Source of the DNA: Segetibacter koreensis DSM 18137
GTDB taxonomy: Bacteria > Bacteroidota > Bacteroidia > Chitinophagales > Chitinophagaceae
Direction of reading: 5' to 3'
Length of the DNA stretch: 64,000 nt
NCBI RefSeq assembly: GCF_000374045.1
Contig: NZ_KB893328.1
Span: 1-64,000, forward strand
Part shown: one piece after another, positions 1 to 10,188 of the stretch
Position numbering within the stretch: position 1 is the stretch's first letter
How the letters are laid out: each line of letters starts with the position of its first letter
Notes under the pieces: model-generated
Databases searched by the model: none
Told to the model about the DNA's origin: nothing
What the model saw: only the letters and a program-made list of their open reading frames with translations
Made by a program: the position numbers and the translations under genes

Positions 1-240
1 AAATATGTTGAGATTAAACCTAATGAGTTTTTAAAGTACACAGATAAATTTGATGACCCTAACCTTCCAGGTGAAATGACTACTTCAGTTTGGCTGCAGA
101 AAGTTTCGGTGGGTACGGAAATAAAAATTTTGCAGGAGAATATTCCTTCCATGATACCTGTAGAAATGTGTTATTTAGGTTGGCAAGAATCTCTGGAGAA
201 GTTGGCGAAATTGGTTGAGCCGGAAATTCCAGATATGTAA
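1..240 (+). CDS. AHSA1/SRPBCC-family protein, C-terminal part
   Basis: Open from the first base of the window to a TAA at 238-240, so the N-terminus lies outside. The 79 visible residues end in a pattern typical of activator-of-Hsp90-ATPase-1 / SRPBCC proteins: a beta strand with TSVWLQK, a short EIKILQENIP stretch, and a closing amphipathic helix CYLGWQESLEKLAKLVEP. Members are small ligand-binding START-like folds of mostly unknown substrate in bacteria. No partner gene is visible upstream. The family call is fairly firm; the specific function is unknown. Confidence 0.7.
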   Translation, partial: KYVEIKPNEFLKYTDKFDDPNLPGEMTTSVWLQKVSVGTEIKILQENIPSMIPVEMCYLGWQESLEKLAKLVEPEIPDM

Positions 241-603
241 TTTATTTTGCAAGCCTTTCTTAAAATACTTTTAAACAAATTGCCCAGCACTTCAACAGGT
301 TTTGAACAAATAAGACTTTCCAAATGTGTCTGGCAAACACGAGGATCGCCATTTGTTTGTAGTTTTTCTGCTTCGGCTTGTGCCTCAGTCCGTTATTTAT
401 TTAAATCCTTCCTCTTACTTTCCGCGCATGATCCCGTCTTGTTCCCCAAAAAATGCTTCATATCTTTTTAAGCATTTTAATATTAAAAGTCAGTAAAGTC
501 ACAAATAAAAATTTGGATGGAAAAGATCCTGCATGTAGTTTTGTCTACTAATTTGGTAGACTATTAATATTATAACGACAGGTAATCTTGAAAATTATTT
601 TTT
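241..603. other. Intergenic region carrying an operator
   Basis: No convincing gene. The minus strand between about 241 and 410 has an open, start-less stretch of roughly 55 codons that reads like protein (rich in Glu/Ala, then a Leu-rich helix) but is closed by a stop just upstream; it may be a decayed gene fragment. The right half holds the palindromic operator and probable promoter of the cysteine desulfurase. Confidence 0.4.
543..561. promoter_or_regulatory. Palindromic operator upstream of cysteine desulfurase
   Basis: The 19 bp GTCTACTAATTTGGTAGAC has perfect 6 bp inverted arms (GTCTAC/GTAGAC). The inner 17 bp matches 14 of 17 positions of a second palindrome at 1794-1810 in front of the SusC/SusD leader. 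It lies about 40 bp before the desulfurase ATG, where a repressor would overlap the promoter. The short dyad with an AT core resembles sites bound by Rrf2-family (IscR/CymR-type) regulators; that assignment is inference. Confidence 0.65.
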
Positions 604-1743
604 ATGAATGTTTATTTTGATAATGCGGCAACTACACCTTTAGATGAAAAAGTGTTTGAATCGATGCTTCCTTATTTGATGAATCACTTTGGAAATCCGT
701 CATCCAGCCATAAACATGGGAGACAGGTGCGTATTGCAATCGAGGATGCAAGGAAAACAATAGCAGACTTGTTAAATGCTTCACCAAATGAAATATTTTT
801 TACATCGGGAGGTACCGAAGCTGATAATACTGCCATTCTTTCTGCTATTCGTGGGATGGGAATAAAGCACGCGATCACAACGAAACTGGAGCATCATGCA
901 GTTTTAAATACATTGAAGTCTTTAGAAAAAAATGGTGAGATAAGTTTGAATTACGTATCGCACGACCGGTATGGAAATCTTAATTTACAGCATTTGGAAA
1001 GTCTGTTGCAGAAAAATGAAAAAACCTTTGTCTCCATCATGCATGGAAATAACGAGATTGGGAATATTAATGATATTGAATTGATAGGTGAAATTTGCAA
1101 AGAATACAATGCAATATTTCATAGCGATACAGTTCAAACAATGGGACATTATCGTTTGGATGTTAAAAAACTGAATGTCCATTTTTTAGTTGGCTCAGCT
1201 CATAAATTTCATGGTCCGAAAGGTGTTGGGTTTCTTTATGTAAAAGATTCTGTTCAGGCAAAACCACTGATACAGGGAGGTTCGCAAGAGAGGCATGTAA
1301 GAGCCGGAACGGAAAATGTTGCAGGAATAATCGGTTTAGCAAGAGCACTTGAAATTGCATACGCTAACCTCGACGAACATCGGCATCATATAGAAAGTGT
1401 AAAACAATCTTGTATCGAACGTTTACAAAACGGAATTCCCAGAATTGAATTTAACGCTAATTCGGCTTTAACTAATAAAAGTTTGTACACCATCTTGAGT
1501 GTCAGTATACCTGCTACAGAAACTGACTTTCTTATCAATCTTGATTTTAACGGTATTTCGGCCTCAGGTGGAAGTGCGTGCAATAGCTCAAATCATGGTG
1601 CTTCTCATGTATTAACTGCTTTAGGCGCTAACGTAAAAAGACAAACAATTCGCTTCTCATTCAGCAAATACAATACGTTAGATGAGGTAGATTTTCTTGT
1701 GGAGAATTTGGTAAATATGCATAAAGAAGTTGCGGCCGCGTGA
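604..1743 (+). CDS. Cysteine desulfurase (NifS/IscS-like, class V aminotransferase)
   Basis: PLP enzyme that removes sulfur from L-cysteine as an enzyme-bound persulfide, giving alanine, to feed Fe-S cluster or other thio-cofactor synthesis. At 379 residues it has the family's length. The PLP lysine is K201 in GSAHKFHGPKG, the GGTEADN cofactor loop is at 69-75, and the catalytic cysteine is C326 in GGSACNSSN on a mobile loop. The loop is short and the gene stands alone, without iscU, sufU or ferredoxin neighbours, so it may serve a specialised sulfur-donor role. It has its own palindromic operator, which is shared with the next transcription unit, and this suggests sulfur- or Fe-S-responsive control. 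Confidence 0.9.
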   Translation: MNVYFDNAATTPLDEKVFESMLPYLMNHFGNPSSSHKHGRQVRIAIEDARKTIADLLNASPNEIFFTSGGTEADNTAILSAIRGMGIKHAITTKLEHHAVLNTLKSLEKNGEISLNYVSHDRYGNLNLQHLESLLQKNEKTFVSIMHGNNEIGNINDIELIGEICKEYNAIFHSDTVQTMGHYRLDVKKLNVHFLVGSAHKFHGPKGVGFLYVKDSVQAKPLIQGGSQERHVRAGTENVAGIIGLARALEIAYANLDEHRHHIESVKQSCIERLQNGIPRIEFNANSALTNKSLYTILSVSIPATETDFLINLDFNGISASGGSACNSSNHGASHVLTALGANVKRQTIRFSFSKYNTLDEVDFLVENLVNMHKEVAAA

Positions 1744-1793
1744 TAGTATTACTAGTTAGAATGAGGAAAGAATGTAAGGAAGAATAAATTTAT

Positions 1794-1810
1794 TCTACTG
1801 GTTTAGTAGA
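1794..1810. promoter_or_regulatory. Palindromic operator upstream of Cys-rich leader/susC
   Basis: TCTACTGGTTTAGTAGA has perfect 6 bp arms (TCTACT/AGTAGA) and closely matches the operator at 544-560. It ends six bases before the TATATTTG -7 element, so a bound protein would cover the spacer between the two promoter elements, as a repressor does. I found no third copy in the window. Confidence 0.65.
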
Positions 1811-1816
1811 CTGCAG

Positions 1817-1824
1817 TATATTTG
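1817..1824 (+). promoter_or_regulatory. Bacteroidota -7 promoter element TATATTTG
   Basis: Exact match to TAnnTTTG, the sigma-ABfr -7 consensus. A clear TTG -33 box is not visible at the expected distance. Predicted transcription starts about 7 bases downstream and would include the Cys-rich ORF. Confidence 0.55.
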
Positions 1825-1892
1825 CAAACTGAAAATAAAAAATAGAAAAATTATTAATACGGCTAGAAATAATCAGCATTAAAATCAGAACA

Positions 1893-2009
1893 ATGAAAAA
1901 CGGAACAGGCCTTAACAGAAAGGCTTTAGGTGGCACAAAAAGAGCTTTAATTTTACAATTCTTCTCTTCTTTTCAATGTTGTTGTATGCACTCGTCTTGC
2001 ATATGTTGA
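1893..2009 (+). CDS. Cys-rich 38-aa leader peptide ahead of susC
   Basis: ATG at 1893, stop TGA at 2007. The peptide has a basic, Leu-rich N-terminal half (RKALGGTKRALILQFF) and ends FQCCCMHSSCIC, with three consecutive TGT codons at 1977-1985 and two more cysteines near the end. A run of cysteine codons 150 bp ahead of a transporter gene fits a translation-attenuation leader whose ribosome stalls when cysteinyl-tRNA is short. It lies directly downstream of the operator and -7 element. No terminator/antiterminator pair is obvious by eye, so the mechanism is inference. It could also be a chance ORF, but five Cys in ten residues at this position makes that less likely. Confidence 0.55.
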   Translation: MKNGTGLNRKALGGTKRALILQFFSSFQCCCMHSSCIC

Positions 2010-2158
2010 TATCTCAACCTTTTCCCTAACGACTTGCTTTCCCGGTTTTTGAAACAATTATCAAGTACTTGAATCTGTACTTGTAGCTACTCCTTGTTCT
2101 TATTATAAAGAATGTAGCAGATCAAGTTCTTATATCATCACTATTAATTATAACAATT

Positions 2159-5100
2159 ATGTTTAAGCATTACAAACTGCTTACAGGATTATTAGCATTT
2201 CTCTTTTACAACAGTATTTATGCACAAAATGTAACCGTGAACGGTTCCGTCGTTTCAAAGAGCGACAACAAGCTGTTGGCTGGAGTCTCCGTTCTTGTTG
2301 AAGGCAGCAGCAAGGGAACAAAAACTGATAACGATGGCCACTTCACTTTAACCTCACCTGTCAATAGCGTAGCCACCTTTTCATTTATTGGTTATCAAGC
2401 GCAAAAGGTTACTCTCAATTCTTCAACAACAACCTTGAATATTGCATTGGAAAATGCAGAAAATTCATTAAATGAAGTCGTTGTGACGGCCCTTGGAATT
2501 ACAAAGCAAAAAAAATCTTTAGGTTATGCGGTACAGGAACTGAAGTCGAAAGATTTTTCTGAAGCAAAAGAACCAAACCTGGTAAATGCTTTGGAAGGCA
2601 AAATTGCCGGAGTAAGAATTACCAATAGCCAGGGCGATATGGGTTCATCGAGAATAGTTATCCGCGGCGAAACTTCCATATCCGGAAATAACCAGCCGCT
2701 ATTTGTAGTTGATGGTGTACCGGTAGACAATTCGCAGTTAGGCGCTGGCGGATCGAGAGATTATGCAAACGCCATTTCTGACTTGAGTGCAGAAGATATT
2801 GAAACCATCAGCGTATTGAAAGGTCCGAACGCAGCGGCGCTGTACGGTTCACGGGCAGCTCATGGTGTGGTATTGATTAAGACAAAAACGGGAAAACGAC
2901 AAAAAGGTCTCGGAATTACGCTTAATTCAAATACGACCTTTTCTAATCTACTTATTTTGCCTAAGTATCAAAACGTATTCGGACAAGGTGCAAACGGGCA
3001 GTTTAGTTATGTAGACGGAAAAGGTGGTGGAGTGAACGATGGCGTTGACGAAAGCTGGGGCCCAAAGCTGGATGGAACTTTGATACCTCAATTTAATTCA
3101 AATGGTCAGCCGGTGCCTTTTATCGCTCATCCCAATAATGTAAAGGATTATTTCAGAACTGGCGTAACACTTAATAATGGTGTGGCTATAGCAAATGCAG
3201 GAGATAAATTTGATTACCGCGTTTCTTATAATAATTCTAACCAAAAAGGTGTTATTCCAAACAGTGAACTAAATAAACATTCAGTTTCGCTCAATACAAC
3301 CTTTAAAGTTGACCCTAAACTCACTTTGACCGCTGCCGCAAATTATTTTATAGATGATGCACCAAACTTGCCTGGTTCTGGTGGTAAACGGGCAACCAGT
3401 ACTATGCTGCAGTTTACGTGGTTTGGACGCCAGGTCGACATGAATCAGTTAAGAAACTACCGTGATGCGAATGGCAACACATTCAACTGGAACAACAGCT
3501 ACTACAGCAATCCATTTTTTGTAGCTTATGAAAATACAGTGCAACAACGTAGGGATAGAATTATAGGAAACTTAGGTTTAAACTATAAAATAACAGATGA
3601 CCTAACGGCAAACTTTAGAAGTGGAAGTGATTATTATACTGACCGTCGTAAGTTAAAAGTTGCCTATGGTACAAGTGGTACGCCTTTCGGCTCTTACGAA
3701 GAGGATGCTTACACTGTAAATGAAAATAATACAGAAGGTACATTAAGTTATAATAAAAAAGTAAGCAGTGATTTTAGTGTGGATGTTTTGGCAGGTGGAA
3801 ATATTCGTACCAAAACTTATTCTGAAAATATTCAACAAGCGCCAAGACTTGCAGTAGCAGGAGTTTATACTTTATCCAACTCACGCGACCCGCTGGTTTC
3901 GTCAAATTACTTCAGCAAGTTGAAACAGTACAGTTTGTTCTCATCTGCACAGGTTGGGTTTAGGAATTATGCTTTCTTAAACCTTACTGCACGTAATGAT
4001 TGGTCTTCTACTTTACCTATTGAAAACTTATCTTATTTCTATCCTTCAATAAATGGAAGCCTGGTGCTTACAGATGCTTTTGATATAAAAAGCAATGTTT
4101 TAAGCTTCGCTAAAATAAGAGGTGGATGGTCAAAAGTGGGTAGCGACGCTGACCCTTACCAGCTTGTAAACACTTACAATTTTAATGCACCGTTTAACTC
4201 AAATCCACAGTTAACTGCTACCGGTAAAGACCTAAATCCTAACCTTAAATCAGAATCTACCACCTCAACTGAAATCGGAGCCGAAGCTGCTTTTTTCAAC
4301 AATCGTGCTCGTCTCGATGTAAGTTTATACAACACAAACAGCTATAACCAAATTCTTTTTGTTGATGTGAGCGCTACAACGGGTTATACATCAAAATTGT
4401 TGAATGCAGGTAAAATAAATAACAAAGGAATAGAAGTGCAGTTAGGTGTTACCCCCGTAAAAACAAACGCATTTTCATGGGATGTAAATGTAAACTACGG
4501 GTCTAACAGAAGTAAAGTTATAGAGTTGGATAAAGAAGGCCGTTTGCAGAATTATGTTTTAGGATCTTACAGAAATATACAAGTGTTGGCAGCAGTTGGT
4601 CAACCTTATGGAACTCTTTATGGCAATGCTTTTCTTCGCGACGCATCTGGCAACATCATTGTAAATGCTGACGGTTTACCTGCCACTGACCCTAACAAAA
4701 AAGTGTTAGGTAAATACACACCTGATTGGACTGGAGGGATCACAAACAGTTTTTCTTATAAAGGCATCACGGCGAGTGTTTTAATAGACGCAAGCTATGG
4801 TGGTTCTATTTTCGCCGGAACAAATTCAACTGGGAGCTATACAGGAGTATTGGAATCTACTTTACCGGGCAGAGATGCTGCGCACGGTGGATTACTTTAT
4901 TACTATCCGGGTAATGATAAAGCAAATGGAACAGTTCAATTAACAAATGGAACCGCAGCTCCTGCAGGTGAAACAGTGTATGACGACGGAATGATTTACA
5001 AAGGTGTAACTGCTGATGGAAAAGCAAACAGCAAGATTATTCCTGCTTCTTCTTACTATAAATCAACAAGAAATATCGAAGAAGCTTATGTATACAATGC

Positions 5101-5341
5101 TTCCTTCGTGAAGCTAAGAGAAGTGAGACTGAGTTATGCATTGCCTTCAAGATGGATTAGCCGCATTGGTTTCGCAGGCGCTTCTGTCTCGCTTGTTGGC
5201 CGCAATCTTTTGTTCATTCATAAAAATGTTCCAAACATCGACCCCGAAACAGCTTTCAACAATGGTAATGCACAAGGCCTCGAAGACCTGACCCTGCCAA
5301 CAACAAGAAGCTACGGTTTTAATATCAACCTTAAATTTTAA
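2159..5341 (+). CDS. SusC/RagA-family TonB-dependent outer-membrane transporter
   Basis: Large outer-membrane channel that works with the SusD-like lipoprotein encoded next. The 1060 residues show a signal peptide (1-22, ending IYAQ), a carboxypeptidase-regulatory-like domain (about 27-105), the plug domain (about 120-240, with SLGYAVQEL, LFVVDGVPVDN and LKGPNAAALYGSRAAHGVVLIKTK) and a long beta-barrel ending in aromatic F at the C-terminus (NINLKF). Substrate cannot be read from the sequence; no glycoside hydrolase is adjacent. The shared operator with a cysteine desulfurase and the Cys-rich leader suggest a sulfur-containing ligand or sulfur-regulated expression. susD starts 10 bp after the stop. 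Confidence 0.95.
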   Translation: MFKHYKLLTGLLAFLFYNSIYAQNVTVNGSVVSKSDNKLLAGVSVLVEGSSKGTKTDNDGHFTLTSPVNSVATFSFIGYQAQKVTLNSSTTTLNIALENAENSLNEVVVTALGITKQKKSLGYAVQELKSKDFSEAKEPNLVNALEGKIAGVRITNSQGDMGSSRIVIRGETSISGNNQPLFVVDGVPVDNSQLGAGGSRDYANAISDLSAEDIETISVLKGPNAAALYGSRAAHGVVLIKTKTGKRQKGLGITLNSNTTFSNLLILPKYQNVFGQGANGQFSYVDGKGGGVNDGVDESWGPKLDGTLIPQFNSNGQPVPFIAHPNNVKDYFRTGVTLNNGVAIANAGDKFDYRVSYNNSNQKGVIPNSELNKHSVSLNTTFKVDPKLTLTAAANYFIDDAPNLPGSGGKRATSTMLQFTWFGRQVDMNQLRNYRDANGNTFNWNNSYYSNPFFVAYENTVQQRRDRIIGNLGLNYKITDDLTANFRSGSDYYTDRRKLKVAYGTSGTPFGSYEEDAYTVNENNTEGTLSYNKKVSSDFSVDVLAGGNIRTKTYSENIQQAPRLAVAGVYTLSNSRDPLVSSNYFSKLKQYSLFSSAQVGFRNYAFLNLTARNDWSSTLPIENLSYFYPSINGSLVLTDAFDIKSNVLSFAKIRGGWSKVGSDADPYQLVNTYNFNAPFNSNPQLTATGKDLNPNLKSESTTSTEIGAEAAFFNNRARLDVSLYNTNSYNQILFVDVSATTGYTSKLLNAGKINNKGIEVQLGVTPVKTNAFSWDVNVNYGSNRSKVIELDKEGRLQNYVLGSYRNIQVLAAVGQPYGTLYGNAFLRDASGNIIVNADGLPATDPNKKVLGKYTPDWTGGITNSFSYKGITASVLIDASYGGSIFAGTNSTGSYTGVLESTLPGRDAAHGGLLYYYPGNDKANGTVQLTNGTAAPAGETVYDDGMIYKGVTADGKANSKIIPASSYYKSTRNIEEAYVYNASFVKLREVRLSYALPSRWISRIGFAGASVSLVGRNLLFIHKNVPNIDPETAFNNGNAQGLEDLTLPTTRSYGFNINLKF

Positions 5342-5351
5342 TGCTCCATTT

Positions 5352-6791
5352 ATGAAATTCGGATATTTCAATATAATTGCTTTTTCTTTCGTTTTGTTTG
5401 CAGCAACCTCTTGCAAAAAAGAGCTTGCTAAAACCAATATTAATCCCAATACAGCCCAAACAGCACAGCCTGATTACCTGTTAACTGCAGCTTCAAAAAT
5501 TACAGCCGATGCTTATTGGGGTGCTGACAACAATTTCAATTCAAGTCTATTAATCGTTCAGCATTGGGCTAAGATTCAATATACAGAACCTGACCGTTAT
5601 ATTTTTTCAAACAGCAGTTTCATTTCTCTCTGGAACACCCTCTATTCACAAAGTCTTACTGACCTCAATACTATAATTGCACAAGCCTATGCACAAGGCA
5701 ATTCTAATTACAAAGGAGTGGCACTTGTTTTAAGGTCTTGGGTATTCCAATTATTAACAGACCAATATGGTGACATTCCGTACAAGCAAGCGGGCGCTAT
5801 AGATGAACATCTTACACCAGTTTATGACGCACAGAAAGACGTGTATTTTGGATTATTAGATGATTTAAAATCAGCGCAGGCAGCGCTTGACCCTGCAGGC
5901 AAACCAATAGCAGGTGACGTCATCTATGGAGGAAAAATCGATTTATGGAAAAAGTTTGCAAATTCTTTAAGACTGCGTATTGCACTTCGCATAGCAGACC
6001 GCGAACCTGAAAAATCAAAACAAGTATTGGCAGACATCACAGCAGAAGGTGGAACTTATATTAGTGATAATACCGAAATTGCTCAGTTGCTGTACTATGA
6101 TTCCCCCAACCAAAATCCTGTAAGCGCCTGGTTCGACACTCGCGATGATTACCGCATCAGTAAATCTATGACGGATAAATTGTTCCAGTTAAATGACCCA
6201 CGTCTGCCTGTTTATGCAAGTAAAACACAAACACCTACGCCGACTAATTATGTTGGTATTCCAAATGGGTTAACTACCGGCGACGCCAACAATCTTGGTT
6301 TTGCAAAAACTTCAAGACCGGGTGCTTATTTTACTGCACCTCACGCTCCCGCTGTAATTATCAGCTACGCGGAAGTATTGTTTGACCGGGCAGAAGCAGC
6401 AGCACGAGGATTTACTTCTGAAAACGCCGCCGATTTATATGCCCAGGCTATCCAGGCATCTTTAAGACAATATGGAATTGCTGATAATGATATTAACAAT
6501 TATCTCACTCAGCCTTCCGTTGCCTTCAATGCTGCTAATTATAAGCAATCTATTGGTGACCAAAAGTGGATTGCTCTTTTTGGAAACGGTCTCGAAGCAT
6601 TTGCTGAATGGCGCCGTCTGGATTACCCACAACTTGCTCCGGCGGTTGCAGGCGTCCTAAATGGTCAAATACCTGTTCGCTTTATTTATCCCGGAACCGA
6701 GCAATCACTTAATAAAGAAAATTATAAAACAGCAGTATCGAACCAAGGCGTAGATGTATTAACTACCAAGCTGTGGTTTGATGTGAATTAA
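5352..6791 (+). CDS. SusD/RagB-family outer-membrane lipoprotein
   Basis: Surface lipoprotein lid of the SusC channel encoded just upstream. It has a short signal peptide with lipobox AATSC (Cys21), then the tetratricopeptide-rich alpha-helical SusD fold. The SusD-like PF12771 type is suggested by the WSNNFNSSLL/QHWAKIQYTEPDRY opening, ALVLRSWVFQLLTDQYGDIPYKQA and the final region QKWIALFGNGLEAFAEWRRLDYP. Length of 479 residues is normal. The 10 bp spacing from susC implies one mRNA. Confidence 0.93.
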   Translation: MKFGYFNIIAFSFVLFAATSCKKELAKTNINPNTAQTAQPDYLLTAASKITADAYWGADNNFNSSLLIVQHWAKIQYTEPDRYIFSNSSFISLWNTLYSQSLTDLNTIIAQAYAQGNSNYKGVALVLRSWVFQLLTDQYGDIPYKQAGAIDEHLTPVYDAQKDVYFGLLDDLKSAQAALDPAGKPIAGDVIYGGKIDLWKKFANSLRLRIALRIADREPEKSKQVLADITAEGGTYISDNTEIAQLLYYDSPNQNPVSAWFDTRDDYRISKSMTDKLFQLNDPRLPVYASKTQTPTPTNYVGIPNGLTTGDANNLGFAKTSRPGAYFTAPHAPAVIISYAEVLFDRAEAAARGFTSENAADLYAQAIQASLRQYGIADNDINNYLTQPSVAFNAANYKQSIGDQKWIALFGNGLEAFAEWRRLDYPQLAPAVAGVLNGQIPVRFIYPGTEQSLNKENYKTAVSNQGVDVLTTKLWFDVN

Positions 6792-7110
6792 TACGGAAGG
6801 GCAGATAAATCAAAAAGTGAGAAAATTTGCAAAAGAAGCTTGAAAAAATACACGGAAATTACTTTTCGTCATTGCGAGGAACGAAGCAATCTGCTTTGAC
6901 TAATTGAACAAGTCTTCAATATTTATCAGATTGCTTCGTCGTTCCTCCTTGCAATGACGAACATAATAATAACTGATACGAGGAACTTTTACAGGTCATT
7001 TTTCCAAAGAAGGGCTAAAGCAGATGCCTGATTATTATATAATCTATGAGCCTGGGCTGGTAGCAACTTTACACACACGCACAAATGGTTGTATAATTAA
7101 AAAACCAAAA
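6792..7110. other. Intergenic region with REP-like inverted repeat
   Basis: No gene seen. It separates the susCD operon from the TlpA-like gene and holds the inverted repeat at 6867-6959. An in-frame upstream extension of the TlpA-like ORF to 7024 crosses this region but lacks a signal-peptide-like start, so I left it out. Confidence 0.5.
6867..6959. repeat. REP/MITE-like inverted repeat with 27- and 33-bp arms
   Basis: Left arm 6867-6893 begins CGTCATTGCGAGGAACGAAG; the right arm 6927-6959 is its reverse complement apart from a 6 bp extra segment and a G/A change. The arms flank a 33 bp loop. The motif CGTCATTGCGAGGA..GAAGCAATCTG is a repeat I recognise from intergenic DNA of many unrelated bacteria, so this is a mobile palindromic element rather than a gene-specific operator. 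As RNA it would fold into a long hairpin downstream of susD. Confidence 0.8.
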
Positions 7111-8370
7111 ATGAAAAAGCGTCACATTATATTTCTCAGGCATTATCCGTACCTGTTCGCTTTACTACTGGTTCTGCTTGTAAGTTGGACAGATAAAAAG
7201 CCCATTTTTAGAAATGGGATATACCGCTCCGTCGTGACAAGGCCTGATGGAAAGGATATTGTTTTCAATTTTCAGTCAAAAGATAGTGCAGGCAAGAAGA
7301 TTTTGTATGTATTAAATGCAGATGAGAAATTATTGGTTGATAACGTAGCCGAAAAAGATGATTCTGTTTTTATACAAATGCCATTTTTTGAATCAGGATT
7401 TAGAGCAGCAATTGATGCGCAAGGCAATCTGCAGGGACAATGGATAAAGCGATTTGCAGACAGGGAGCAAATATTACCCTTTACAGCAAAATACAATGAG
7501 AAACAAAGATTTGTTGCAACTGCAAAGCCGGCTTTCAATGTTAGTGGAAGATGGGACGCAACTTTTATAGGAAAGAAAAACGATACAACAAAAGCTATTG
7601 GAGAATTTTCTCAAACAGGGGCTAAGATCACAGGAACATTTCTTACATCGACAGGCGACTACAGGTATCTGGAAGGAGTTGTAAGCAGAGATAGTTTAGT
7701 ACTATCAGGCTTCGATGGCGGACATGCGTTTTTATTCACTGCGAAAATCGATGATGCTAATAATCTTTCCGGAGGAAATTTTTATTCAGGTGCTACAAGT
7801 GTTGAAAGTTGGGTGGCCAAAAAAGATGAGAAAATAGAATTGCCCGATGGATACCAGCAGACAAAACTGCACGAAGGCGAGTCGAAATTAAATTTTTATT
7901 TTAAAAGCCTTGATGGAGAAGATGTATCGATAAACGACAACCGCTTCAAAAACAAAGTAGTTGTAGTGCAGATATTAGGTTCGTGGTGCCCGAATTGTAT
8001 GGACGAAACCAATTTCTTAAGCGATTACTATAATCGAAATAAGCAAAAAGGTGTAGAAATTGTTGGTTTGGCTTACGAAAGAACAACCGATTTCGAAAGG
8101 TCTAAAAGTTCGCTCCAAAGATTTGTAAAAAGATTTAATGTTCAATACCCGGTATTGATAACAGGCGTAACAGTATCAGATCTGCAACGAACAGAAAAAA
8201 CGCTACCTCAATTGACAGAAATCAAAGGTTTTCCAACTTCCATTTTTATTGATAAAAAAGGTAATGTAAGAAAAGTATACACCGGTTTTAACGGACCGGG
8301 AACTGGAGAACACTATAAAGAATTTCAAAAGGAATTTGATGAAACGATCAATGGGCTATTGAATGAATAA
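7111..8370 (+). CDS. TlpA-like thiol-disulfide oxidoreductase, envelope-anchored
   Basis: I start at ATG 7111 (MKKRHIIFLRHYPYLFALLLVLLVSW), which gives a basic N-terminus followed by a membrane segment; an upstream in-frame start at 7024 adds 29 residues with no such logic. The 419-residue protein has a beta-rich N-terminal domain (about 35-265; two similar halves around GRW and GDYRYLEG motifs) and a C-terminal thioredoxin/AhpC-TSA-like domain with the redox pair W292-CPNC. Such proteins keep extracytoplasmic cysteines reduced or act in cytochrome c maturation. It follows the susCD operon by 320 bp, so common transcription is possible but not shown. Confidence 0.85.
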   Translation: MKKRHIIFLRHYPYLFALLLVLLVSWTDKKPIFRNGIYRSVVTRPDGKDIVFNFQSKDSAGKKILYVLNADEKLLVDNVAEKDDSVFIQMPFFESGFRAAIDAQGNLQGQWIKRFADREQILPFTAKYNEKQRFVATAKPAFNVSGRWDATFIGKKNDTTKAIGEFSQTGAKITGTFLTSTGDYRYLEGVVSRDSLVLSGFDGGHAFLFTAKIDDANNLSGGNFYSGATSVESWVAKKDEKIELPDGYQQTKLHEGESKLNFYFKSLDGEDVSINDNRFKNKVVVVQILGSWCPNCMDETNFLSDYYNRNKQKGVEIVGLAYERTTDFERSKSSLQRFVKRFNVQYPVLITGVTVSDLQRTEKTLPQLTEIKGFPTSIFIDKKGNVRKVYTGFNGPGTGEHYKEFQKEFDETINGLLNE

Positions 8371-8474: not shown

Positions 8475-9350
8475 ATGAGAAGCGAAACTGAAATTAAAAA
8501 TCTCATACTTGAGTTTTCCAAACAAGATGAAAGGATTAGAGCAGTTTTGCTAAATGGTTCAAGAGCAAATCAAAATATTAAACCTGACAAACTTCAAGAC
8601 TTTGATATTGTTTTCGTTGTTGATAACTTGGAAAGCTTTACGATTAACCACTCCTGGACAAACATTTTTGGTGAGCGAATCCTTTTTCAGCTTCCAGATG
8701 AAATGACTTTTGGAAATAAAGACCGCTATGAGGAAAATATAAGTTTTGCTTATCTAATGTTATTTAAAGATGGAAATCGGATAGACCTCACACTATTTCC
8801 TAAACAGAAACTTACATCAGACTTTAAACGAGATAGTCTAACAATTTTGTGGCTCGACAAAGACAATCTATTTACACATCTTCCTCAAGCGAGCGATAAA
8901 GATTATCATATTCAAAAACCTACAGAAAAAGAGTTTTTAGATACTTGTAATGAATTTTGGTGGGTAAGCACCTATGTGGGCAAGGGACTTTTAAGGGATA
9001 AAATAATTTACGCAAAAGAAATGTTGGAAACAGTTGTAAGACCGATGTTTATGAAAGTTATTGAATGGAAAGTCGGAATTGAAAACAACTTTGACGTATC
9101 AATTGGCAAATCGGGTAGTTTTCTAAGAACATTTGTTCCTGGCGACTTCCATAACAAAGTTTTATTGACCTACTCAAATTTTGAGACCGAAGAAAATTGG
9201 AAGGCGTTATTTTTAATGACTGAAATTTTTCAACAAACATCAGATTTTATCGCAGACAAAATGGGATTTGCGATAAACAGAGAAGAACAGCAAAACACAC
9301 TCGCTTATCTGAAAAAACTGCACGATAAGGTTGATAATTTCGAGCTGTAA
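8475..9350 (+). CDS. ANT(6)-like aminoglycoside 6-adenylyltransferase family protein
   Basis: Nucleotidyltransferase of the AadE/AadK family, which adenylylate streptomycin at the 6-position in characterised members. Length (291 residues) matches. The catalytic fold is visible as LLNGSRAN (25-32), the Asp pair D42/D44 in QDFDIVFVV and a third Asp, D104, in GNRIDLTLFP. The C-terminal helical domain contains the FWWVSTYVGKGLLRDKIIYAKEM stretch typical of the family. Many environmental Bacteroidota carry such chromosomal homologues and resistance is not guaranteed. The neighbouring hydrolase ORF overlaps its last codons, which marks a possible insertion junction. Confidence 0.88.
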   Translation: MRSETEIKNLILEFSKQDERIRAVLLNGSRANQNIKPDKLQDFDIVFVVDNLESFTINHSWTNIFGERILFQLPDEMTFGNKDRYEENISFAYLMLFKDGNRIDLTLFPKQKLTSDFKRDSLTILWLDKDNLFTHLPQASDKDYHIQKPTEKEFLDTCNEFWWVSTYVGKGLLRDKIIYAKEMLETVVRPMFMKVIEWKVGIENNFDVSIGKSGSFLRTFVPGDFHNKVLLTYSNFETEENWKALFLMTEIFQQTSDFIADKMGFAINREEQQNTLAYLKKLHDKVDNFEL

Positions 9351-10188
9351 TAATTCAAACAACCAGACAATGAATTCCCAAATAGCAAAAGGCTACGAAA
9401 CAAAAAATGATAGCACAAGCGGCTATGCTTCCGTGAACGGACTTACAATGTATTACGAAATTCACGGAGCGGGTGCGCCGCTTGTTCTGATTCATGGCGG
9501 CGGCTCTACCATTCAGACAACTTTTGGAAGAGTGTTACAAGACTTTGCAAAAACTCGTTCAATAATAGCGGTTGAGATGCAGGCACATGGACACACAGCA
9601 GACATTGACCGACCTTTAAGTTTTCAGCAAGATGCAGATGACATTGCAGAACTGTTAAAGCAACTAAACATAGGCAAAGCTGACATTTTTGGTTTCAGTA
9701 ATGGAGCAAGTACCACACTTCAGTTTGCTATTCGACATCCTGAAATGGCTAATAAGATAATTGTAGCTTCTACTTTCTATAAAAAGTCCGGTGCTCCCGA
9801 CTGGTTTTGGAATATGATGTCTAGTCCGACTTTTGAAGGTATGCCCCAACCATACAAGGATGAATATTTAAAAATAAATCCTGACACAAATGCTCTTTAC
9901 CGAATGTATGAAAGAGATGTAACAAGAATGCAGTCCTTTCCCGACATTTCTGAAGAACAAATATTATCTATCAAAGCACCTGCATTTATTATCATTGGGG
10001 ACAATGATGTTGCAACTCCTGAACATGCTGCTGAAATGCATCGTTTAATGTCAAACTCACGACTTGCAATTATTCCTGGGGGACATGGAGATTATATTGG
10101 GGAAATGACAACACCGCAAGACAGCATTTTAATTGCAGCTACAGTTTCATTGATTAATAAGTTTCTAGACGAGCCGGTAACGAAATAG
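9331..10188 (+). CDS. Alpha/beta hydrolase with clipped lipoprotein-like leader
   Basis: Serine hydrolase fold of about 285 residues. Visible are LIHGGGS (53-59), the nucleophile elbow GFSNGAS with S123, the acid D224/D226 in IIGDNDVAT and H252 in PGGHGDY. The substrate is unknown. The best start is uncertain: TTG 9331 gives IISSCNNSNN, which reads like the last part of a lipobox plus Asn/Ser linker, but the frame is closed upstream by TGA at 9310. ATG 9370 gives a clean cytoplasmic form. The TTG start overlaps the nucleotidyltransferase gene by 20 bp. Confidence 0.8.
   Translation: MIISSCNNSNNQTMNSQIAKGYETKNDSTSGYASVNGLTMYYEIHGAGAPLVLIHGGGSTIQTTFGRVLQDFAKTRSIIAVEMQAHGHTADIDRPLSFQQDADDIAELLKQLNIGKADIFGFSNGASTTLQFAIRHPEMANKIIVASTFYKKSGAPDWFWNMMSSPTFEGMPQPYKDEYLKINPDTNALYRMYERDVTRMQSFPDISEEQILSIKAPAFIIIGDNDVATPEHAAEMHRLMSNSRLAIIPGGHGDYIGEMTTPQDSILIAATVSLINKFLDEPVTK

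Follow-up and report, generated by a model that had tools for sequence, protein, structure and literature searches.

SusC/SusD systems are usually taken to be importers of glycans, and a locus in Segetibacter koreensis DSM 18137 raises the question of whether one of them could serve sulfur supply. The locus lies within the first 64,000 nucleotides of contig NZ_KB893328.1 (forward strand, hereafter the window). There, a cysteine-desulfurase-like gene is followed by a short open reading frame (ORF) with a cysteine-rich end, by genes for a SusC-type transporter and a SusD-like lipoprotein, and by a gene for a TlpA-like protein. What would this set import, and how would its expression be controlled? 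We propose, with a probability of roughly 0.7, that the SusC/SusD/TlpA-like set is a sulfur-nutrient importer controlled by an Rrf2-type repressor at a palindromic operator and by a leader rich in cysteine codons.

A preliminary description of this DNA had reported near-identical palindromes ahead of the desulfurase-like gene and ahead of the Cys-rich leader, and we found all of these elements exactly in place. Operator 1 (TCTACTAATTTGGTAGA, 544-560) is separated by 43 bases from the start of the desulfurase-like gene (604-1743, + strand), which codes for a class V aminotransferase of 379 residues (Pfam Aminotran_5, E 5e-79). NifS/IscS models match this protein with scores under the model cut-offs. 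The gap between the end of this gene and the SusC start at 2159 is 415 bases. Operator 2 (TCTACTGGTTTAGTAGA, 1794-1810) lies in the gap, before the leader/SusC promoter, and is followed by a candidate -7 element (TATATTTG, 1817-1824, + strand). The consensus of this promoter element in Bacteroidota is TAnnTTTG. The leader ORF (1893-2009, + strand) starts with ATG, has 38 codons and ends in FQCCCMHSSCIC; its Cys codons fall between 1977 and 2006, directly before the stop codon at 2007-2009.

Both operators are exact matches to the pattern TCTACTNNTTTNGTAGA, which has three copies in the 6.1 Mb genome, compared with one of the reversed pattern. The third copy begins 66 bases before cysH. The gene run that follows it contains cysH, cysD, cysN and genes for serine acetyltransferase-like, cysteine synthase-like and tetrapyrrole methylase-like proteins, a flavoprotein, a sulfite-reductase-like protein and, last, a siroheme/TauE-like protein; cysH is backed by NCBIfam, and the remaining genes were named by eye from their sequences. 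Because this site heads cysH and cysteine-pathway genes, we conclude that the operator is a signal of a sulfur regulon. The sulfur link proposed earlier is supported. The shared operator is likewise real, but it marks a regulon and is not local to the window locus. A looser pattern, YCTAYNNNNTTAGTAGA, matched only the two window sites in the genome, with one match for its control, and did not match the copy beside cysH. Among sites one mismatch away from the motif in this genome, L004 has no sulfur neighbor, and L005 and L007 lie inside ORFs.

We examined the exact motif in 147 genomes of the family and found 62 sites in 35 genomes, compared with 17 sites in 15 genomes for the reversed motif. 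Only 8 of 64 counted motif sites lay inside ORFs (the two window sites were entered twice, so that 62 are distinct), compared with 15 of 17 control sites; a flanking-gene script placed the site inside a long ORF at 6 of 60 motif loci. Among the genes starting towards these 60 loci, BLAST links 15 whose products were judged SusC-like by eye, and several of these match the window SusC at 27-34% identity. The genes starting towards the loci also include five peroxiredoxins (1-Cys type among them), a group of four apparently PhyH-like proteins, three cysH-like genes, two Cys/Met enzymes of the pyridoxal phosphate (PLP) type and two tetrapyrrole methylases, and TlpA-like genes occur among the neighbors as well. 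Flanking genes were named by eye or by BLAST unless Pfam or NCBIfam is given, and the Pfam check of these neighbors covered one peroxiredoxin, one PLP enzyme and one methylase. Many motif sites have neighbors without an evident sulfur role. In genus g108, which we take to be Flavobacterium, the looser pattern marked 22 sites in four genomes, compared with 2 for the control, and 2 of the 22 were inside ORFs. Its targets there are the SusC ortholog (three of four genomes), the cys operon (three of four), a PhyH-like gene (four of four), second SusC-like genes, a sulfatase and others. PhyH-like genes (phytanoyl-CoA dioxygenase family) accompany the sulfur operator in two bacterial families (L287, L292, L297 and L302; L094 and L133), with L287 identified by Pfam and the others by eye.

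We asked how the operator is placed relative to the promoter, using 80 homologous SusC loci and the window as a sample of 81. The operator occurs within two mismatches at 41 of these loci, and shuffled sequences reached at most 4. When up to 4 of 12 scored bases were allowed to be off, an operator-like site followed by a TAnnTTTG box was present at 66 of the 81 loci. The distance between the two was 7-8 bases at 31 loci and 17 bases at 18, together 49 of the 66, and many of the 17-base distances stem from one Pedobacter group. These favored distances differ by about one helical turn. The control gave 47 pairs in 1620 shuffled regions, 7 of them at distances of 7, 8 or 17. The window has 6 bases between operator 2 and its -7 box, and in g108 the operator begins 1 base 3' of the box in 23 of 27 loci. 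All of these positions overlap the expected RNA polymerase site, which favors a repressor. The geometry also bears on the reading that the palindromes are RNA hairpins or terminators, with the leader a chance frame. A hairpin at 543-561 was indeed flagged as terminator-like. The spacing to the -7 box is nonetheless fixed, most loci have the site ahead of where a transcript could start, and the palindrome precedes many unrelated genes, and we consider this explanation highly implausible.

The preliminary description had named an Rrf2-type repressor. The genome contains three Rrf2 genes, one at C24:28518-28940 and two paralogs on C13. The C24 protein belongs to the Rrf2 superfamily (TIGR00738, 110.4 bits with a cut-off of 73.3; PF02082 over its cut-off) and is under the curated cut-offs for CymR (64.1 of 195 bits) and IscR (65.7 of 207.55). 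Orthologs with E <1e-41 are present in 92 of the 147 family genomes, and 9 of 10 more distant genomes searched contain an Rrf2 match. In seven of these nine distant genomes the ortholog lies a short way ahead of the sulfate-assimilation operon and shares its strand. In two of these seven it directly precedes a cysI-like gene (24-26% identical to that of the window genome), and in five g108 genomes one oppositely directed TauE-like gene lies between the ortholog and the cys operon. Four cysteines, in the motif C-x8-C-x2-C-x4/5-C, are invariant in all 40 aligned Rrf2 sequences, a set that holds the window genome's own sequence twice. The location of the orthologs upstream of cys operons makes the four-cysteine C24 protein the likely repressor of the operator.

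It is fairly unlikely, though by no means fanciful, that a C13 paralog or an unrelated sulfur regulator binds the operator and the remaining model is unchanged. The operator (at most two mismatches, within 250 bases) precedes only 1 of 30 Rrf2 orthologs. In this genome the C24 gene has no cys genes next to it, and the same is true of the candidate in G400 and G330; there are also three Rrf2 genes to choose from. The gene order in the seven distant genomes argues against a different regulator, as does the Pedobacter form of the operator, TCGACTAAATTAGTCGA, which resembles the IscR type 1 core, GACT-N5-AGTC. Genomes with an ortholog contained the operator in 32 of 92 cases compared with 3 of 55 for the rest, and the control pattern behaved partly alike (13 of 92 and 2 of 55). 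Autoregulation of the Rrf2 gene was rejected on the 1-in-30 count; L105, with a motif site 79 bases ahead of an Rrf2 gene, is a second case.

We counted a leader where an ATG-initiated ORF of 6-60 codons, no more than 420 bases from SusC, had three or more Cys among its final eight residues. Leaders were present at 38 of the 81 loci, compared with a mean of 0.78 and a maximum of 5 in dinucleotide shuffles. The Cys-rich leader noted in the window therefore belongs to a class: short ORFs with Cys codons near the stop are conserved before SusC. The leader bodies vary freely and the Cys-rich end is kept. Cysteine was encoded by TGT 100 times and by TGC 81 times in 42 leaders picked by a looser first rule, and a few leader starts (L031, L061 and others) were moved by eye to a downstream ATG. 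Gaps were multiples of three in all 14 leader pairs compared, which were hand-picked and overlapping; this, with the excess over shuffles, speaks against a chance frame. Changes were more frequent at the third codon position (132) than at the other two (97 and 89), and amino-acid changes exceed silent ones. Segetibacter aerophilus (L009) is the nearest named relative that we found, with a SusC identity of 88%, and it keeps the leader and the operators. Its desulfurase operator, at -47, has 1 of 12 scored bases off, the same as the window's own, and its SusC operator has diverged by three mismatches. Loss of leader and operators in close relatives, which would have spoken against the preliminary reading, is thus not what this relative shows. 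No Cys leader was seen within 450 bases before the next closest SusC of the window genome. Pedobacter leaders often retain R-M-C or R-M-R with fewer Cys. In Mucilaginibacter leaders (A1), a recurring MQSM before the Cys run coincides with a small predicted hairpin, AUGC-AAA-GCAU; given this overlap, the Met codons may serve RNA structure and not methionine sensing. As judged from its codons, the leader would be cysteine-responsive, and we infer that SusC itself is a sulfur gene.

How might such a leader act on SusC? The untranslated spacer between the leader stop and the SusC start (2010-2158, + strand) forms RNA that is more stable than its shuffles and lacks a good terminator. The z score was -1.85 in the window, -1.25 on average over 40 loci (L024 and L088 are omitted from the folding test) and -2.56 in g108. 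Terminator-like hairpins occurred at 2 of 40 loci compared with 6 of 200 shuffles, which is no excess; in g108 the count was slightly above shuffles (3 of 27 compared with 1 of 81). A search of Rfam gave no match up to E 1 in window positions 1-2400. Two further candidates were rejected. One was a covarying structure in the Mucilaginibacter leaders (A1), where the consensus fold of 15 leaders contained only 9 pairs, 1 with both sides changed. The other was a specific C-rich Rho site directly 3' of the leader, where C exceeded G at 27 of 38 loci, compared with 26 of 38 before the leader and 34 of 38 before SusC.

The leaders of g108 are smaller, with 7-8 codons at 27 of 27 loci, mostly MKKRMCCR and a stop. 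Two Cys codons in tandem are present in 16 of these micro-leaders, 10 have one Cys and one has none, so the Cys requirement looks looser in this genus. Two hairpins lie 3' of the leader. The first, CATTTCTG-N6-CAGAAATG, is nearly invariant and is the sole one predicted by RNAalifold. The second, just before SusC, was drawn by hand from one row (L230) and counted on 27 rows; both sides changed in 6 of its 12 pairs, and a T-rich stretch interrupted by A follows it. The two helices together contained 19 double-change cells; shuffles gave 5.0, and sliding the helices gave no more than 7. Further pair types in the helices were not above shuffles (149 of 500 reached the observed number). When one mismatch was allowed, the first-hairpin pattern matched 11 places in five g108 genomes and the control matched none. 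Ten of these places precede SusC-like genes and one precedes a sulfatase gene (genome G346). Under a lax criterion (one Cys, 4-20 codons, within 320 bases), a micro-ORF with Cys lies upstream of all 11, examples being MCFCC, MKTMQTCCCK and MKKRMCSK, each followed by a stop. The pattern missed the main SusC of G310, where the hairpin differs. Rfam returned nothing for the g108 hairpin but one chance snoRNA match (E 0.35).

Seven g108 loci (L310, L312, L313, L314, L315, L316 and L319) carry MCFCC, MCSCC or MCMCC, each with its stop, 208-251 bases upstream of the hairpin. In six of them this five-codon ORF precedes a second, longer micro-leader, and two leaders are possibly arranged in series.

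We read the g108 leader and hairpin, from their sequences, as putative ribosome-position control of translation or of Rho access. That the leaders are instead transcription attenuators with an intrinsic terminator is improbable. The Cys codons near the leader stop, the stability of the downstream RNA and the second g108 hairpin with its paired changes and T-rich stretch would all suit such a mechanism, but the T-rich stretch is broken by an A, and terminator-like hairpins are no more frequent than in shuffles over the 40 loci. Since terminators are not in excess over the 40 loci, we rejected intrinsic-terminator attenuation. The termination-type attenuation of the preliminary description is likewise not supported, and stalled ribosomes more probably act through translation or Rho-type control. 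There are precedents for both types: excerpts of PMC1262725 suggest Rho for actinobacterial cys leaders, and an excerpt of PMC13236596, citing Canestrari 2020, refers to translation attenuation in M. smegmatis.

The relatives carry an additional signal that, like the minimal g108 leaders and their conserved hairpin, is absent from the preliminary description. An S-adenosylmethionine (SAM) riboswitch of the SAM-I class lies upstream, on the same strand, at 62 of the 80 homologous loci. This count comes from our own model, built from 10 of those loci, and leaves out L054, whose match is on the opposite strand. The same 10 loci were given to Rfam, and 10 of 10 passed the RF00162 gathering score. 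No SAM-I element was found in window positions 1-2400, in the genome (threshold E 0.001, with 150 of the 344 candidates scored) or, at the gathering score, in five g108 loci given to Rfam. Many Mucilaginibacter loci have SAM-I about 1.1 kb upstream, before a co-directed TlpA-like gene, and an operator-like palindrome is often found just before it. When operator, leader and SAM-I were counted per locus, 14 of the 81 loci had three signals, 37 had two, 25 had one and 5 had none. The 19 loci without SAM-I include 9 with the operator and 7 with the leader. On a SusC tree of 85 rows, which omits L024 (truncated SusC), SAM-I requires at least 9 changes, the leader at least 13 and the operator at least 19.

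We compared the transporter with solved structures to ask what it might import. The window SusC (2159-5341, + strand; 1060 residues) is a SusC/RagA-type TonB-dependent outer-membrane transporter (TIGR04056, E 1e-189). Its nearest solved chain is BT_2264 (5fq6, E 3.5e-127), followed by SusC homologs and RagA. An excerpt of PMC7782687 mentions BT_2264 as a peptide complex, and a peptide is perhaps the substrate here as well. The SusD-like lipoprotein (SusD-like_2; 5352-6791, + strand; 479 residues; PF12771, E 5e-112) has several glycan-binding entries among its best solved matches, after one of unstated substrate. The TlpA/ResA-like thiol-disulfide oxidoreductase (7024-8370, + strand) matches Redoxin, AhpC-TSA and Thioredoxin_8, with a ResA-like model under its cut-off; its start was taken from the ORF list, and the true start may be internal. 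A TlpA-like protein is found within the fetched stretch at 49 of the 81 loci, with WCxxC in 48 of the 49, and a desulfurase-like protein at 7 of 81. The most likely activity, judged from these parts, is import of cystine, glutathione or peptides of sulfur amino acids, followed by periplasmic reduction. An ordinary glycan SusCD pair, with its sulfur link arising from sulfated glycans, is a distinctly less probable reading. It would account for the motif and hairpin at the G346 sulfatase and for the glycan-binding SusD matches, but BT_2264 is by a wide margin the closest of the solved SusCs to the window SusC, and sensing of SAM and Cys points more to sulfur amino acids; no search was made for sulfatases beside the 81 SusC loci.

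Some neighboring features stand apart from these questions. An imperfect inverted repeat (CGTCATTGCGAGGAACGAAGCAATCTG and its complement) lies at 6866-6960, between the SusD and TlpA-like genes, and the TlpA-like gene may have its own promoter. Positions 8475-9350 match a streptomycin adenylyltransferase (PF04439, E 1e-105) and overlap a listed alpha/beta hydrolase ORF (9331-10188). A PIG-L/LmbE-type protein is encoded within the fetched stretch of five Mucilaginibacter loci (L019, L020, L022, L025 and L027), and the one at L019 matches the bacillithiol protein BshB2, under the cut-off.

In the model that we favor, the SusC/SusD/TlpA-like set would be an outer-membrane importer of a sulfur-bearing nutrient, made on sulfur shortage. 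In a first layer of control, an Rrf2 repressor would occupy TCTACT-N5-AGTAGA at the promoters of the SusC leader, the desulfurase gene and the sulfate-assimilation/cysteine operon and would leave it when sulfur is short. In a second layer, the leader ORF would sense charged tRNA-Cys. At low cysteine, ribosomes would stall at the Cys codons that lie shortly before the stop; this would refold the spacer RNA or change how accessible it is, and SusC would be made. With ample cysteine the leader would be completed and SusC would stay low, through translational or Rho-type control and not through an intrinsic terminator. A third layer, found in relatives and not in this genome, would add methionine/SAM sensing by SAM-I ahead of the leader. 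Of this model, the analysis shows the conserved parts, the genes that make up the regulon and the geometry of operator and promoter; which protein represses, in which direction the response goes, ribosome stalling and the substrate are predictions.

Several observations weigh against this model. The lack of a terminator excess, the unremarkable base composition after the leader, the single-Cys and Cys-free micro-leaders of g108, the rarity of the operator before Rrf2 orthologs, the separation of the Rrf2 candidate from cys genes in three genomes and the similar behavior of the control pattern in the genome association have been given above. In addition, 43 of the 81 loci lack a leader under the strict rule, and some Pedobacter leaders hold one or two Cys. 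The leader body is fast-evolving, with 24 non-synonymous and 4 synonymous codon changes between the window and L009. The shuffle tests, finally, ignore kinship among the loci.

A broader reading, to which we give somewhat less than even odds, joins these systems into one conserved Bacteroidota sulfur-starvation regulon. One importer would integrate three independent sensors within one promoter and leader: Rrf2 for cysteine or Fe-S state, SAM-I for methionine/SAM and stalling at Cys codons. In g108 the arrangement would be reduced to a new translation-acting RNA element made of a micro-ORF of 5-10 codons and a hairpin. If the model is true, a SusCD branch that senses Cys and SAM shows a possible route to organic sulfur in these bacteria, and Bacteroidota gain a candidate for a master regulator of sulfur whose operator is readable. 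The locus would also be a case in which a protein, a riboswitch and the ribosome all sense one nutrient at a single gene and replace one another from lineage to lineage. The literature searched, which mostly excludes subscription papers, contained no account of a Bacteroidota SusC preceded by a Cys leader or a SAM riboswitch, no description of such stacking on a SusCD importer or of a micro-leader with a hairpin, and no master sulfur regulator in this phylum.

Cys leaders, SAM-I riboswitches and Rrf2 sulfur regulators are each already known kinds of control. Excerpts of PMC9723704 describe leader-peptide clues before amino-acid operons in Flavobacterium psychrophilum and a cobalamin riboswitch before a TonB-dependent transporter, and an excerpt of PMC7366714 describes short ORFs in Bacteroides leaders. 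The window leader resembles the polycysteine cys leaders of mycobacteria and other Actinobacteria, which, according to excerpts of PMC1262725, are short ORFs with Cys runs near the stop and no obvious terminator; polycysteine leaders of actinobacterial cys operons also appear in an excerpt of PMC13236596 (citing Canestrari 2020). Unlike those, the leaders here occur in Bacteroidota, precede SusC/SusD and are joined to a promoter operator, with SAM-I added in relatives. The upstream ORF uORFC-8-2, before cysS in Rhodobacterales, likewise has tandem Cys codons within an RNA structure, but that motif closes with a probable intrinsic terminator and stands before a gene for a tRNA synthetase (excerpt of PMC8632094). 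SAM-I (RF00162) has been reported in Bacteroidetes/Chlorobi DNA (excerpt of PMC2211319), whereas the elements in the relatives studied here precede a SusC-type transporter and are stacked on a Cys leader. The candidate regulator is like CymR and IscR in its Rrf2 superfamily membership, dyad operator and sulfur genes, and differs from them in falling under both cut-offs and in its C-x8-C-x2-C-x4/5-C motif. The importer itself is most like the peptide importers BT_2263-2264 and RagAB, a likeness by sequence in which BT_2264 is the nearest solved SusC and RagA is also matched.

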